Shown one piece after another: positions 3,993 through 28,368 of a stretch of DNA of 33,934 bases; within the stretch, counting starts at the first letter, position 1; each line of letters starts with the position of its first letter. The position numbers and the translations under genes are program-made. Source of the stretch: a virus; the IMG/VR virus record IMGVR_UViG_3300035190_000295, positions 1 to 33,934 of that record; one strand, given 5' to 3'. The notes under the pieces were generated by a model. The model was not told where the DNA came from, ran no database searches, and was given only the letters and a program-made list of their open reading frames with translations.

Positions 3993-4175
3993 ATGATGAC
4001 TGTTGAGCAAATCAAAAAACGGCTGAAAGATGCCAATCTAAAGCGAGTGGCCGAGAATGCCGGTGTCCATCCGGCTACGGTTTATAGGTTCATGCAAGAG
4101 GAATCAAAGCCCCTGTATGAGACGGTCAAAGCCCTGAGCGACTATCTCATCAGGCAGGCGGCATCACATGGCTGA
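3993..4175 (+). CDS. Small helix-turn-helix regulator (Cro-like)
   Basis: 60 residues (ATG 3993; a second ATG at 3996 is possible). The segment LKRVAENAGVHPATVYRFM (about 16-34) is a helix-turn-helix of the lambda-repressor/Cro type, followed by YETVKALSDYLIRQ. AAGGTG precedes the start. It is encoded immediately downstream of the symmetric promoter pair and is probably the protein that binds there, acting as the switch between leftward and rightward transcription. A longer in-frame extension starting at 3723 runs through the promoter and the opposite gene and is rejected. Its stop overlaps the primase start by 8 bases (ATGGCTGA). Confidence 0.75.
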   Translation: MMTVEQIKKRLKDANLKRVAENAGVHPATVYRFMQEESKPLYETVKALSDYLIRQAASHG

Positions 4176-6186
4176 CCTCTCAAACATCCTCGGCGGCCCA
4201 TGGGCTCCACCACCAGAGAAACTTGTAGCGCCACCAGAAGCACAGCTCCTAGATGCCATGCGTGCAGCAGGCCTTGAACCACCAGACGAGATACACATGG
4301 ACGGGAAAATCCATCGTTTCAAGTCAGGCACCAAAGGCTCACCAGGACACGGCGACAAGCCCGGCTGGTATTTGGTGTTTGGAGATGGCATTCCAGCCGG
4401 TCGGTTTGGCTGCTGGCGCGCAGGCATGGAAGTGACCTGGCGTGCAGACGTAGGACGCAAACTTAACCAGGCCGAAGAAATGTCCCATGCCCGGCGCCTC
4501 AGCGAGTCCAAGGCCATGCGCGATGCAGCCCTGGAGCGTCAACACCAGCTGGCCAGCGACACAGTGGAGAAAATCTGGACAGGCGCTCAGGCAGCTTTGC
4601 CAGATCACCCCTACTTGGCCAAAAAGGGCATCGGCGTTCACGGCGCCAGGGCCACAGGAGACGGTCGGCTTGTCGTCCCCCTCTACGATTCAGACGGCAC
4701 AATCTCCAGCCTCCAATACATCGACCACCAAGGCGGAAAGCTCTACCACCCAGGTGGCCAGACAGGCGGCAAGTTTTGGATGCTAGGCACCACAGACGAG
4801 CCCGGCACCCTATACGTTGCCGAAGGCTTCGCAACCGCGGCCACCATCCATGAGACCACAGGCAGGCCAGTCGTGGTGGCCTACAGCGCCAGCAACTTGG
4901 TGCCAGTCACAGGCACACTCCGAGAAATGCACGGCGCAACCCAGGACATCGTTATCGTGGCAGACAATGACAGCTCAGGCGTTGGCCAACGCTACGCAGA
5001 ACAGGCCAGCGCCAAGTTTGGGGCCAGGATGGTCATGCCACCCATCCAAGGCGATGCCAACGATTACGCCAAAGCAGGCAACGACCTGGCCAGCCTTCTC
5101 ATGCCCTCCCACGATGACTGGCTCATCCCTGCGGATGACTTCTGCTCTCAGCCATCCCCCATCAGCTGGCTCGTCAAGCGATGGATTCAATCCCAAGCAT
5201 TGGTGATGGTGCATGGCCCAAGCGGTGGCGGAAAGACATTCGTGGTGCTCGACTGGTGCCTGCGCATGGCCAGCGGAACAGAAGACTGGGCAGGCCACAA
5301 GGTCAGGAACGGCAACGTGGTGTATCTGGCCGGTGAAGGCCACCACGGTTTGCGCGGCAGGGTGGCAGCTTGGAAGCACCACCACAAAGCAGGCAAACTG
5401 GACATGTGGCTCTCCAAAGATGGCTGCGACCTCAACACCCCGACCGGATACCTCAAAGTGGTCGAGCAGGTCAGGATGCTGAAAGACAGACCTAGCGTGA
5501 TCGTGGTCGATACCCTGCACCGATTCTTGGCTGGAGACGAAAACAGCGCTCAAGATGCCAAGACCATGCTGGACGCATGCAATGCTCTCATGATGGAATT
5601 CAACTGCTCGGTGATCTTGGTGCACCACACAGGCGTGTCAGACGAAGCCCAGCACCGGGCACGCGGATCCAGCGCTTGGCGCGGCGCTCTCGACATCGAG
5701 ATTAGCATCGTGCCAGGCAAGGACGACCAGCCAATGCAGATCGTCCAGCGCAAGTCCAAAGACGCAGAACTGGCCGAGACCGTTTTCGTGGAACTTCACA
5801 CAGTCGAGATCCCAGGCTGGCGCGATGAAGACGACCAGCAAGTCACCAGCGCAGTCGTTGTGGAGGCCTCAGCACCCGCTCAGGCCAGCAAAAAGGACAG
5901 CAAGATCGACACCCACCGCAAGACATTTGAAAACGCATGGTGGGCATCAGGAGCCGAAGAGCGTAATGGTTTACCCTACCTCAGCCGCTCGGCAATGACA
6001 GACTATTTGGTGCAAAAACTTGCCCTCAGCAAGGCTTCGGCCAAGCAATACATCAAGCCAAGCGTGCCAGGAAAACCCATCGCAGATCTTCTCACAGCAC
6101 AAATTATCGAGGCCTTTGAGCATGGCTGGATTGTCATCGACCAAGTTCAGGCCAGCGCAATGCTGATCCGAAAATCAATGCCATGA
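4168..6186 (+). CDS. Toprim primase / RepA-like hexameric helicase
   Basis: This 672-residue fusion has a Toprim domain with YVAEGFATAATI (about 215-226) and VIVADNDSSGVG (263-274) after a poorly conserved N-terminus. A RecA-fold helicase follows: Walker A HGPSGGGKTF (about 349-358), Walker B VIVVDTLHRF (444-453) and a sensor-like VILVHHTG (481-488), resembling AAA_25/RepA helicases. It should prime and unwind phage DNA at the replication fork. A candidate origin lies about 1 kb downstream. No N-terminal zinc finger is obvious. The C-terminal 100 residues may be a separate winged domain. Confidence 0.88.
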   Translation: MADLSNILGGPWAPPPEKLVAPPEAQLLDAMRAAGLEPPDEIHMDGKIHRFKSGTKGSPGHGDKPGWYLVFGDGIPAGRFGCWRAGMEVTWRADVGRKLNQAEEMSHARRLSESKAMRDAALERQHQLASDTVEKIWTGAQAALPDHPYLAKKGIGVHGARATGDGRLVVPLYDSDGTISSLQYIDHQGGKLYHPGGQTGGKFWMLGTTDEPGTLYVAEGFATAATIHETTGRPVVVAYSASNLVPVTGTLREMHGATQDIVIVADNDSSGVGQRYAEQASAKFGARMVMPPIQGDANDYAKAGNDLASLLMPSHDDWLIPADDFCSQPSPISWLVKRWIQSQALVMVHGPSGGGKTFVVLDWCLRMASGTEDWAGHKVRNGNVVYLAGEGHHGLRGRVAAWKHHHKAGKLDMWLSKDGCDLNTPTGYLKVVEQVRMLKDRPSVIVVDTLHRFLAGDENSAQDAKTMLDACNALMMEFNCSVILVHHTGVSDEAQHRARGSSAWRGALDIEISIVPGKDDQPMQIVQRKSKDAELAETVFVELHTVEIPGWRDEDDQQVTSAVVVEASAPAQASKKDSKIDTHRKTFENAWWASGAEERNGLPYLSRSAMTDYLVQKLALSKASAKQYIKPSVPGKPIADLLTAQIIEAFEHGWIVIDQVQASAMLIRKSMP

Positions 6187-6300
6187 TCAAAGGCCACACA
6201 ACGCCGCCAACCGGGTCGTTCACCCTGTTGTTTTATTGGCCAAATATGCCTGAAACCCGCATGGATATTGCGCAAGCAGCTACTTAATTGATAGCACGTC
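6187..6300. other. Intergenic segment with chromosome-like repeat (left flank of captured DNA)
   Basis: These 114 bases contain no gene. The part from about 6249 to 6297 (from CCTGAAACCCGCATGG to AATTGATAGCA) resembles, from memory, a short palindromic repeat common between genes of Comamonadaceae chromosomes: an AGCTA...TAGC core preceded by TTGCGCAAGCAGC in this orientation. That would mark bacterial DNA imported with the acyltransferase gene. No convincing promoter or ribosome-binding site for the next gene is visible. Confidence 0.4.
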
Positions 6301-7194
6301 ATGCTTAACTTTTTACCCTCCCCCCTGATCAGCCTGCTCGCTGGTTTGCTCATGGTGCTCAACGCCCTGTTCTGGGTGCCCATTCTGTTGGTGTTTGCAT
6401 CGCTCAAGCTGGTGCTGCCCTTTAAGGCGTTGCGCCTGCGCATTGACCCCGTGTTGCTGTTCATTGCCGAGGCCTGGATTTCGGGCAACAGCGCCTGGAT
6501 GGGCTTGACGCAGCGCACGGTGTGGGACGTGCAAGGCGTCGACGGGCTTGACCCGCACAGTTGGTACCTGGTCAACAGCAACCACCAGTCCTGGGTGGAC
6601 ATTCTGGTGCTCCAGCACCTGCTGAACCGGCGCATCCCCCTGCTCAAGTTTTTTATCAAGCAGCAACTCATCTGGGTGCCGGTGATGGGCTTGGCCTGGT
6701 GGGCGCTGGATTTTCCGTTCATGCGCCGCCACAGCGAGGAATTTCTAAAAAAGCACCCCGAGTTGCGCGGCAAAGACCAGGAAACCACCCGCAAAGCCTG
6801 CGAGAAATTTGCCCTGATTCCCACCAGCGTCATGAGTTTTATGGAGGGCACACGTTTTACGCCCGCCAAACACGCCAAACAGAAGTCGCCCTACCAGCAC
6901 CTGCTCAAACCCAAGGCGGGCGGCATGGCCATGGCGCTGAACGCCATGGGCGACAAGTTTCAAGCCATTCTGGACGTGACCATCGTCTACCCCGACGGAG
7001 CCCCCACATTTGCCGAATTTTTGGGCGGCAAAATGCGCCGGGTGGTGGTGCGGGTGCGTTCCCTGCCGATTCCGGCGCACCTGCTGCAGGGCGACTATGC
7101 GCAAGACCCCGCATTTCGCGAAGCGTTCTCGCAGTGGGTGCAACAGCTCTGTTATCCACAAGTTATCCACAGGCAGTATTGCGGTAACTGGTAA
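6301..7194 (+). CDS. PlsC-family 1-acylglycerol-3-phosphate acyltransferase (YihG-like), probable host-derived cargo gene
   Basis: 297 residues. A hydrophobic N-terminal anchor (about 5-35) precedes the acyltransferase motifs: NHQSWVD (94-100, the HX4D catalytic motif) and FMEGTRF (180-186, the glycerophosphate-binding EGTR type). Known family members transfer an acyl group to lysophosphatidic acid at the inner membrane; the YihG branch is a lipid-remodelling form. It is unlike any neighbour: a bacterial membrane-lipid gene between a primase and an origin. The last 14 residues, after WVQQL, are read from two DnaA boxes and an iteron, so the original C-terminus was cut and replaced. The catalytic core is intact, so the enzyme may still work. 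The ribosome-binding site is poor. Confidence 0.85.
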   Translation: MLNFLPSPLISLLAGLLMVLNALFWVPILLVFASLKLVLPFKALRLRIDPVLLFIAEAWISGNSAWMGLTQRTVWDVQGVDGLDPHSWYLVNSNHQSWVDILVLQHLLNRRIPLLKFFIKQQLIWVPVMGLAWWALDFPFMRRHSEEFLKKHPELRGKDQETTRKACEKFALIPTSVMSFMEGTRFTPAKHAKQKSPYQHLLKPKAGGMAMALNAMGDKFQAILDVTIVYPDGAPTFAEFLGGKMRRVVVRVRSLPIPAHLLQGDYAQDPAFREAFSQWVQQLCYPQVIHRQYCGNW

Positions 7195-7351
7195 CCGCAA
7201 CGTAAAAAAACGTAATTGTTACCAGGGGCAAAAACAGCGATTTATGGTAACTTTTGGTAACACCCCCCTTTAGGGGGGTTACCTGTTACCTATCGATGCA
7301 GCGAGAACTGACACTAACCAACCAAGCTAACCATCAAAAAAGTTATCCACA
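7152..7351. other. Candidate replication origin: three DnaA boxes, seven GGTAAC iterons and a large hairpin
   Basis: TTATCCACA DnaA boxes occur at 7152-7160, 7163-7171 and 7343-7351, all in one orientation. The second and third lie within a 16-base direct repeat, AGTTATCCACAGGCAG (7161-7176 and 7341-7356). Between them are GGTAAC at 7183, 7190, 7246 and 7256 and the reverse GTTACC at 7218, 7278 and 7285. Two convergent pairs form an imperfect hairpin at 7256-7283 with a C6/G6 stem and a TTTA loop. An A-run (7204-7210) adds AT-rich DNA. It is the longest non-coding stretch in the genome, downstream of the primase-helicase gene. Confidence 0.6.
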
Positions 7352-7362
7352 GGCAGATTTAA

Positions 7363-7545
7363 ATGACCAAACAAAGAGAAACCCCAGACTTCAAGACCTG
7401 GCAGCTTGACACCCTGGCCAAGTTTGCGACCGAGTGCTATCTTCGGCTGCAAGACGAGCAAGCCGCAAACGAGCAACTCCGCCTCGACCTCAAAGATGCC
7501 ATGAAACTGGCGCGAATCCAAAACATGAAGGACAATGCAGCATGA
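7363..7545 (+). CDS. Hypothetical protein, 60 residues, coiled-coil-like
   Basis: No family recognised. The sequence is largely helical and charged, with FATECYLRLQDEQAANEQLRLDLKDAMKLARI suggesting one coiled-coil helix. The ribosome-binding site is weak (AGGCAG at the last DnaA box). The stop overlaps the terminase small subunit start (ATGA), which supports a real gene. The position just before the terminase resembles small packaging accessory genes, but this is only context. Confidence 0.6.
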   Translation: MTKQRETPDFKTWQLDTLAKFATECYLRLQDEQAANEQLRLDLKDAMKLARIQNMKDNAA

Positions 7546-8045
7546 CCACGAAAACACACAAAACGAAAGCAGCAAAGCCCACCAAGCCAGGCAGTGAAGA
7601 CCGGGCCAAGGTCAGTGCATTGGTGCTGCAAGGGATGCGCAGTGGCTTGAGTGCTTTTAAGGCGTGCAAGGCCGCAGGCGTCAATCAAAGCACCTTCAAC
7701 GATTGGCTCAACGCTGACGCCGCCTTGGCCGCAGACTATGCGCGTGCGCGGGAAGACCTGCTTGAGATGATGGCAAGCGATTTGCTCGACATTGCCGACC
7801 GTCCAGTGGGCTCGACCGAATCAGGCGCGACAGACTCGGGCGCAGTGGCTGATAAAAAGGTGCAAATTGACACCCGCAAATGGCTGTTGTCCAAGCTGGC
7901 TCCCAAGAAGTACGGGGACAGGCTTGAGTTGGCTGGAGACAAAGAAAATCCATTGCACGTAAAACAGACAATTGATGCCAGCAAATTGTCAACAGATGTT
8001 TTGGCGCAAATCATGGCCGCAAAAGATGCAACTGACGCAAGCTGA
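7542..8045 (+). CDS. Terminase small subunit
   Basis: 167 residues, close to P22 gp3 (162). An N-terminal Lys-rich stretch is followed by a helix-turn-helix-like region (MRSGLSAFKACKAAGVNQSTFNDWLNAD, about 31-58), helices, then RKWLLSKLAPKKYGDR near residue 109, a motif shared by many small terminases. It should recognise the packaging site and load the large subunit. The start at 7542 overlaps the upstream stop as ATGA; a 36-residue upstream extension in the same frame is rejected as it lies within the upstream gene. In P22 the pac site lies in this gene; it was not located here. Confidence 0.85.
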   Translation: MTTKTHKTKAAKPTKPGSEDRAKVSALVLQGMRSGLSAFKACKAAGVNQSTFNDWLNADAALAADYARAREDLLEMMASDLLDIADRPVGSTESGATDSGAVADKKVQIDTRKWLLSKLAPKKYGDRLELAGDKENPLHVKQTIDASKLSTDVLAQIMAAKDATDAS

Positions 8046-24900: not shown

Positions 24901-26163
24901 ATGTCCGCACTCTCGATCCAGCCAACCTATCCGATCTTTCAAGGCCGTGATGGGCAGCCACTGGAGAACGGTTACGTTTGGATAGGCGAGCCGAATCTAA
25001 ACCCACAGACCAACCCAGTCGTGGTGTATTTCGATGCAGCCCTCACCATCCCAGCACCACAGCCACTGCGCACGCTTAACGGCTATATCTCACGCGCAGG
25101 CACACCAGCCCAGATCTACGTCAATGCCGTGAATTTCAGCATCTTGGTGCAGGACGGCAATGGCTCGATGGTCTACAACTTTCCAGAAGGCGCAGGCGCA
25201 GCCCCATTCGCACTGAAGGGTGCTAATAGCGACATCACCAGCTTAAGCGGACTTACTACGGCGTTGTCTGTCCTGCAAGGCGGCACGGGTGCAACAACCG
25301 CAGGCGCAGCCCCATTCGCACTAAAGGGTGCTAATAGCGACATCACCAGCTTAAGCGGACTTACTACGGCGTTGTCTGTCCTGCAAGGCGGCACAGGCAC
25401 TACGGGTGGTGTACCAGACAAAATCCAGACCATCGGCGGCTCGGTAGCAGCGTCGGCGCTCACGGTCACGGCGGGCGCATTGGCTCTGGATTTTCGCAGT
25501 GCTACGCTCACCAGCGGCACGATCACCACCGTAAGCGGCACGCCCGCGAGTCTGGTTGTACCCAGCGGTGCAACGCTTGGCACAGTCAACGCGGTGCAAT
25601 CCCGTATCGTGGTGCTGGCCCTCAACAACGCGGGCACGATAGAGCTGGCAGTCGTCAATATCAGCGGCGGCAACGACCTGACAGAGACAGGCGTAATCAG
25701 CACCACGGCAATCAGCGCGGCGGCTGACGTTGCCAACGTGATTTACTCCACCACGGCGCGAACATCGGTTGCTTACCGCGTAGTTGGATACGTGGAAAGT
25801 ACACAAGCCACTGCGGGGACTTGGACCACTACGCCAAGCACGATTCAAGGACAAGGTGGGCAGGCTCTAGCGGCTATGAGTTCGCTGGGGTATGGGCAGA
25901 CTTGGCAGAACGTCACAGGGTCTAGAACAGTAGGAACAACCTACTACAACACCACAGGAAAACCGATACAACTCCAGTTATCAGGGAACAACGCAACGGT
26001 TTCAACACTAACAATAACTGTCAACGGCGTGGCGGCGGTATCTGCGGGGCTAGGCGCAACGTTCCTTGCAAGCTACTCGGTGGCAATCCCGCCAACAGCT
26101 ACTTACGTCGTTGCCGTCACAGCGGGTTCATTGGCAAATGTTACATGGACAGAACTTCGCTAA
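24901..26163 (+). CDS. Tailspike/tail fibre with P22 head-binding domain
   Basis: 420 residues. The first 100 residues (IQPTYPIFQGRDGQPLENGYVWIGEPNLNPQTNPVVVYFD...ISRAGTPAQIYVN...FSILVQDGNGSMVYN) match the P22 gp9 head-binding domain. A tandem 36-residue repeat follows (about 98-169) with the fibre-type LQGGTGATT motif, then a beta-rich C-terminus without a recognisable polysaccharide-depolymerising domain. It is much shorter than P22 gp9 (667), so it may bind rather than cut its receptor. This is the probable host-range determinant. Confidence 0.87.
   Translation: MSALSIQPTYPIFQGRDGQPLENGYVWIGEPNLNPQTNPVVVYFDAALTIPAPQPLRTLNGYISRAGTPAQIYVNAVNFSILVQDGNGSMVYNFPEGAGAAPFALKGANSDITSLSGLTTALSVLQGGTGATTAGAAPFALKGANSDITSLSGLTTALSVLQGGTGTTGGVPDKIQTIGGSVAASALTVTAGALALDFRSATLTSGTITTVSGTPASLVVPSGATLGTVNAVQSRIVVLALNNAGTIELAVVNISGGNDLTETGVISTTAISAAADVANVIYSTTARTSVAYRVVGYVESTQATAGTWTTTPSTIQGQGGQALAAMSSLGYGQTWQNVTGSRTVGTTYYNTTGKPIQLQLSGNNATVSTLTITVNGVAAVSAGLGATFLASYSVAIPPTATYVVAVTAGSLANVTWTELR
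25193..25396. repeat. Tandem 108-bp direct repeat inside the tailspike gene
   Basis: Copy one spans 25193-25300 and copy two 25301-25396, the second cut short where the sequences diverge. They differ only at a silent CTG/CTA codon before diverging. Near identity shows a recent duplication, in frame (36 codons). Confidence 0.92.
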
Positions 26164-27807: not shown

Positions 27808-28368
27808 TCACGCGCCTCCTTTGCATTGCTCACAAATAAATAGCAAATACATGGCTTGCTGGTCCCTCGAAGCATCCCACGCAGCAGCCGACGCAGCAGC
27901 AGAAGCATCCCACGCAGTATCCCTCGCAGCAGCCGCCGCAGCAGCCCACGCAGTATCCCTCGCAGCATCCGCAGCAGCAGCAGCAGAAGCAGCCCACGCA
28001 CCCCCCGCAGCTCTCGCAGCAGCTCTCGCAGCAGCTTTCGCAGCAGCTTTCGCATCATCCAATTCCGCTTGTGTTGCTTGGCCGCGCGCAAACTTCTCGG
28101 CGACATCTATGATCTTTATACTCCTTGGGTCAGTCATCAAATGCTGCACGCTGCGGGCGCACTCCACTGCAAAAAGTCTGATCTCTTTGTCGCGCCCATC
28201 TACTGCACTCAGGCACCATAAGGCATAGTCCAACCCATTGCTCTCAAGTATCACGGGTATATCCAACGGCTCGTCGTCTGCTTGGGTCTTGCCGAGGTTT
28301 TTGAGCAGCTTCTGCCAGCCCGCAGTGCACGGCAAATTAGCTCTGATTTTGTTTAGTGTTGTGTGCAT
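27808..28368 (-). CDS. Alanine-rich repeat protein (A-W-D repeats), unknown function
   Basis: 186 residues. The N-terminal domain (about 1-95) includes DYALWCLSAVDGRDKEIRLFAVECARSVQHLMTDPRSIKIIDVAEKFARGQAT, a module I remember from many phage and bacterial proteins. A low-complexity helix follows (about 100-165), built from Ala with periodic Trp, Arg and Asp (DAARDTAWAAAAAA...ARDTAWDASAAA). The C-terminus is MYLLFICEQCKGGA. It is predicted to be a long amphipathic helix. AAAGGAGGTGCGTA before the ATG is a near-perfect ribosome-binding site. Confidence 0.75.
   Translation of the reverse strand: MHTTLNKIRANLPCTAGWQKLLKNLGKTQADDEPLDIPVILESNGLDYALWCLSAVDGRDKEIRLFAVECARSVQHLMTDPRSIKIIDVAEKFARGQATQAELDDAKAAAKAAARAAARAAGGAWAASAAAAADAARDTAWAAAAAAARDTAWDASAAASAAAWDASRDQQAMYLLFICEQCKGGA

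Follow-up and report, generated by a model that had tools for sequence, protein, structure and literature searches.

Well-supported capture of a Rhodoferax-type acyltransferase gene by a P22-like phage, with truncation at the border of the origin

How does a phage genome come to carry the gene for a bacterial membrane-lipid acyltransferase, and would the enzyme still work there? This question is raised by the IMG/VR record IMGVR_UViG_3300035190_000295, whose full 33,934 bp form the window analysed here. The record has a perfect 127-bp direct terminal repeat at its ends, so the assembly closes on itself. A first-pass annotation, made from the sequence alone, had described a small P22-like phage, and we agree: because it contains a P22-type portal gene (PF16510, E=6.5e-154) and coat gene (PF11651, E=9e-99), both from profile searches, an Sf6-type small terminase gene (PF20901), and the stabilisation and gp7 genes (PF11134, PF25688), the record is, by its gene content, a P22-like phage. 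It also codes for a Cas4-type exonuclease, a Sak4-like annealing protein and an SSB-like protein.

Repetitive stretches occur elsewhere in the window. At 1851-2148 there are approximately 50 copies of the hexamer GCCAGA, giving two long overlapping minus-strand frames, one (MALA)n-like and the other (GSGYG)n-like. Related 12-bp units rich in CGCAGCAGC occupy 27863-28054 within a minus-strand ORF, where they encode Ala/Trp-rich repeats, and a 108-bp tandem duplication (98% identical) lies at 25191-25394, within a likely tail-fibre gene (24901-26163). The features of the acyltransferase locus are these:

4168-6186, + strand: phage primase-helicase (Toprim + AAA_25), directly upstream of the insert
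6193-7151, + strand: bacterial (Rhodoferax-clade) insert of 959 bp, with a one-base (G) ambiguity at its borders
about 6232-6297, + strand: Rhodoferax dispersed intergenic repeat of about 66 bp before the ATG (approximately positions 40-105 of the insert used as query)
6301-7194, + strand: ORF of a YihG-type 1-acylglycerol-3-phosphate acyltransferase, 297 aa, ATG at 6301, stop at 7194
6583-6600, + strand: catalytic motif I region, H95-x4-D100 of NHQSWVD, near-invariant in 26 homologues
6844-6855, + strand: EGTR motif, residues 182-185, invariant in 26 homologues
7150-7194, + strand: new C-terminus CYPQVIHRQYCGNW and stop, from DnaA boxes and a GTAAC repeat, replacing the W-x2-KD-x2-I helix
7152-7361, + strand: candidate phage origin, with DnaA boxes at 7152, 7163 and 7343 and seven GTAAC/GTTAC pentamers, its layout conserved in relatives
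7434-8045, + strand: Sf6-type small terminase, phage flank

By sequence, the ORF is a member of the YihG-type LPAAT family. It scores 411 bits against the NCBIfam equivalog NF058536 (cut-off 260), in a match that reaches only position 278 of 290, and it matches PF01553 at E=1.3e-13. The HX4D motif, EGTR motif and N-terminal anchor proposed at the outset are all there, as NHQSWVD, EGTR and long N-terminal helices. A PDB sequence search with the product gave zero matches, but a fold search did find PlsC of Thermotoga maritima (5kym; E=1.2e-6, probability 1.00, TM 0.55/0.67), and none of the PHROG families matches the ORF. E. coli YihG is a genuine LPAAT which transfers cis-vaccenoyl groups and, when overproduced, rescues a plsC-ts strain (PMC7277886).

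The gene does lie between the primase and the candidate origin, as first described, with the Toprim/AAA_25 gene upstream and the DnaA-box/iteron region downstream. The original start of the region at 6187, however, falls in phage sequence just past the primase stop: foreign DNA begins at 6193. The gene had also been said to have no phage-type ribosome-binding site, and no Shine-Dalgarno sequence precedes the ATG, but chromosomal relatives lack one too, so its absence is a property of the source gene.

We compared the locus with 160 loci from related phages, chosen by primase or TerL. In the closest relative, L083 (flank identity 99% on the left and 97% on the right), ...ATGCCATGATCAAAG continues directly as TTATCCACAAGTTATCCACAGG, while in our record 959 bp separate the same two bases. 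The same zero-gap site is found in L082, L084-L088, L090, L092, L094, L101-103, L106-109, L111, L126, L130 and others, so that L083 and more than 20 further relatives have the exact empty site, which is identical across relatives with 72-99% flank identity. It reads G/TTATCCACA (the slash marks the insertion point) and sets the right border at 7151/7152; measured against it, the insert borders have no target-site duplication and no lost target base. The acyltransferase is present in 0/160 of these loci, none of which matches the insert DNA either, and the gene is thus not a core gene of related phages; this check, named in the first-pass annotation, speaks in favour of its reading. As relatives share the exact empty site and none has the gene, the insertion is derived and private to this phage's lineage.

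Two insertion mechanisms were rejected. For an integron cassette, the target G/TT is suggestive, but the insert starts with GCCACAC where a cassette would have TTRRRY, and its end lies within a coding sequence instead of an attC. Transposition would leave a target-site duplication, which is missing, as is any IS gene. An Rfam search of the insert gave no above-threshold match to a known RNA.

The insert has a recognisable chromosomal source. Its best relatives are in the Rhodoferax chromosomal MAG loci L002 and L003, with 86% amino-acid identity in a match that covers residues 1-283 only, i.e., the donor-derived part of the ORF, residues 284-297 being phage-encoded. At the DNA level, homology extends upstream to 6221 (L004) or 6242 (L003) and stops at 7151 in all donors; because it is contiguous, the gene and its upstream region arrived as one piece. 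The upstream DNA had been likened to a Comamonadaceae-type intergenic repeat, and it is indeed a dispersed Rhodoferax repeat: genome G002 by itself has about 25 more copies, others occur in G001, G003 and G004, and the same repeat directly precedes the gene in L003-L005. A 40-gene tree places the insert gene within the Rhodoferax clade (support 98/96), on an end branch like those of its neighbours.

No donor above 83% DNA identity was found among 103 genus genomes and 401 family genomes, so the capture cannot be dated. The phage gene has eight private amino-acid replacements, mostly conservative, and no stops or frameshifts. Compared with the nearest chromosomal genes, it has a dN/dS of 0.09-0.13 (0.05-0.09 among chromosomal genes), which mostly reflects chromosomal evolution, since the nearest sampled donor is just 83% identical in DNA, and which fits a constrained gene captured recently. 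As the sampled donors are distant and the phage copy is the only one found, a value of approximately 0.1 does not show selection in the phage.

The gene did not arrive whole. Every chromosomal relative with a readable full ORF is at least 296 aa long (64/64), and these relatives have a C-terminal helix with W-x2-KD-x2-I, a block that is nearly invariant in our 26-sequence alignment. The phage ORF is cut just before the conserved W and continues as CYPQVIHRQYCGNW, read from two DnaA boxes and a GTAAC repeat. The enzyme had been called intact, which the loss of this conserved C-terminal helix contradicts. The accompanying claim, that the last 14 residues are encoded by DnaA boxes and an iteron, is correct for the last 14 codons from 7150, and the proposal that the origin border truncated the gene and supplied its new end agrees with the empty sites and with donor homology, both of which place the border at 7151.

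Structure prediction raises the same concern. For the intact L003 protein, AlphaFold2 gave a mean pLDDT of 88.9, with helix 270-300 at 92-96; for the phage protein, run with the same sequence set as alignment, the mean was 74.3, and residues 285-297 and 181-204 (including EGTR) fell under 50. This comparison does not measure stability, and the tail of the query itself alters the alignment columns used, so the low confidence at EGTR and the tail is a warning of possible damage, not proof of it.

That a P22-like phage captured a Rhodoferax-type acyltransferase gene, truncated where the origin begins, is well supported: relatives have exact empty sites, the donor clade is chromosomal, and homology ends at 7151 in every donor. 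The data show the capture, its donor clade and exact borders, the rarity of the gene and its truncation, whereas expression, activity and any benefit to the phage are inferences. In our preferred reading, a P22-like lineage would recently have taken up a 959-bp fragment of a Rhodoferax-like chromosome, in which the intergenic repeat is followed by a yihG-type LPAAT gene that breaks off after codon 283; the joining was probably illegitimate, at one base of microhomology. The fragment would have come to lie after the stop codon of the primase and before the first DnaA box, in a module that these phages often swap. The captured gene points the same way as the phage genes on either side and is thus probably co-transcribed with them; a consensus scan of 5900-7600 for sigma-70-like promoters, the one promoter type within its scope, found none. 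Translation would continue for 14 codons into the origin, and the product, if it folds, would be an inner-membrane LPAAT acylating lysophosphatidic acid at the sn-2 position in infected cells. To this whole reading, i.e., a recent, private, illegitimate capture whose product may be active, we give a probability of approximately 85%; impaired or absent activity is about as likely as activity, because the conserved C-terminal helix is lost.

An assembly or amplification chimera of phage and bacterium could in principle produce such a locus, and the metagenomic origin of a single record, together with junction strings that are absent from other viral contigs, would be in keeping with one. We nevertheless consider it improbable: both phage sides meet at the same base pair as in dozens of relatives, so two independent false joins would need to strike adjacent bases, one shared base at the borders is too little for a graph error, and the contig is closed. 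There is next to no chance that this is an old phage gene lost by relatives, for which nothing speaks beyond its presence in the record; that history is contradicted by the identical empty site in relatives across the whole range of flank identity, and by a gene inside the Rhodoferax clade with a bacterial intergenic repeat still attached.

The captured gene could be a neutral passenger, i.e., a host fragment caught by chance and not yet lost, whose protein is inactive or irrelevant, and we put the chances of this at even. An insert carried by one genome only, with no recurrence, no promoter of its own found, a truncated conserved tail and nothing to date the capture as old is what one would expect of a passenger, but the frame remains open with every motif in place, and phage genomes usually shed useless DNA. 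It is also possible, though we hold this more tentatively, that the truncated enzyme is active and selected for altering membrane phospholipids during infection, as a functional auxiliary metabolic gene. The kept catalytic residues, the open frame with its conservative replacements and the demonstrated LPAAT activity and plsC-ts rescue of overproduced E. coli YihG (PMC7277886) argue for activity, while the missing W-x2-KD-x2-I helix, the collapse of AlphaFold confidence at 181-204 and 285-297 where the intact homologue is confident, and the restriction of the gene to a single genome argue against it.

The neighbouring DnaA boxes invite a further idea. According to the account in PMC7277886 of earlier work (Babu et al. 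2017), overproduction of YihG in E. coli suppresses DnaA-dependent hyperinitiation. A captured YihG might then shift the lipids that set the DnaA-ATP level, tune initiation at the phage's DnaA-box origin and so help the phage. The nearness of the boxes makes this link tempting, but it is speculation, and we think it very unlikely.

The site of insertion has a history of its own. Downstream of the primase, these phages carry one of three repeat types: GTAAC (our record, L083 and others), GGAAC (L089, L171, L224 and others) or (T)AGGGGGC (L097, L099, L121 and others). Each of these iteron types (at 7152-7361 in our record) goes with its own version of the C-terminal domain of the primase (at 5930-6186). 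Only three columns of the 672-residue primase separate GTAAC from GGAAC phages with an overlap of 0.1 or less: 633, 634 and 627, the last being Q in the former and V/T in the latter (27 and 22 distinct sequences, respectively). AGGGGGC-type phages have a different primase sequence around 627-634. Mapped onto a tree built from primase residues 1-560, the iteron types need at least 19 changes. For example, L082 and L097 are identical over these residues yet differ in iteron type; their DNA is 99.7% identical over the 4,693 bp that end near codon 588-608, then unlike over approximately 400 bp (L082:6315-6731 versus L097:4694-5063), then 99.5% identical, which, from the alignment, is a recent, clean swap of the primase C-terminal domain and origin.

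Because of this covariation, primase residues ~590-672 are likely an origin-recognition domain that reads the iterons; an upstream HTH regulator, also tested as the reader, does not vary with iteron type. In satellites such as P4, replication proteins are known to bind the origin through a C-terminal domain. By its coordinates, the acyltransferase insert sits inside this exchanging primase-C-terminus/origin module, which is possibly of greater interest than the capture itself. Within the candidate origin there is also an inverted repeat, ACCCCCCTTTAGGGGGGT, at 7261-7278, whose arms vary among relatives (e.g., CCCCATCTTTAGATGGGG, ACACACCTTTAGGTGTGT) with pairing kept and the CTTTAG centre constant. 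L160 and L210 carry other cargo between primase and terminase, downstream of the origin, including DNA-methyltransferase-like genes.

The phage, a virus of freshwater bacteria, belongs to an uncultured and widespread group, and the captured host DNA suggests contact with Rhodoferax-like bacteria. A search for prophage or host evidence found no relative of the phage coat in 401 genomes of the donor's family; one of them gave just a partial hit of marginal strength (E=7.5e-4), which lay in an unrelated frame of 1370 aa. Within the genus Rhodoferax, genome G080 has a primase relative (62-63% identity) on an 18.9-kb contig, but this does not settle the phage host because 0/12 of the other phage proteins tested are on that contig.

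Among viruses, the gene appears to be rare. Pattern scans of 2.9 million viral contigs, using the single protein and the 26-sequence alignment, found no relatives, although such scans need exact short peptide matches and could miss distant members. Seven "phage" records (including OQ658364 and CAKLQH020000030) gave tblastn YihG matches at 45-54% identity, two of which were inspected. In an Acinetobacter phage-collection record, yihG lies beside minCDE and algC and is therefore bacterial chromosome; in a Pseudomonas phage-collection record, the match is in an unannotated stretch near the attR end, probably flanking chromosome. A limited literature search found no earlier phage-borne YihG-type LPAAT, so this one, if active, would be the first to our knowledge. 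The locus also records, to the exact base, a phage's acquisition of a membrane-lipid gene from a host: the donor clade, both borders and the empty site can all be seen. It is, in addition, a case of a gene gaining a new end from regulatory DNA.

Compared with known systems, the viral enzymes nearest in fold (by Foldseek) are acyltransferases of eukaryotic giant viruses and ascoviruses (Tupanvirus, Heliothis virescens ascovirus 3h), which are distant in sequence (10-18% identity); in BFVD, no phage protein of this fold scored at E<=0.001. Like phage morons and auxiliary metabolic genes, ours is a host metabolic gene between two co-directional phage genes and is missing from sister phages, but unlike typical examples it has no promoter or terminator of its own that we could find, occurs once and is truncated. 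The Rhodoferax chromosomal yihG genes (L003/G002, L002/G001, L004/G003, L005/G004) share approximately 83-86% amino-acid identity with it over residues 1-283 and, in L003-L005, the preceding repeat, but they are chromosomal, 300-312 aa long and intact in the tail. With YihG-family LPAATs more broadly (E. coli YihG, NF058536, PlsC4 of Shewanella livingstonensis), it shares the full-length family match, HX4D, EGTR and N-terminal membrane helices; unlike them, it is phage-borne, has lost the conserved C-terminal helix and ends in 14 residues taken from an origin.
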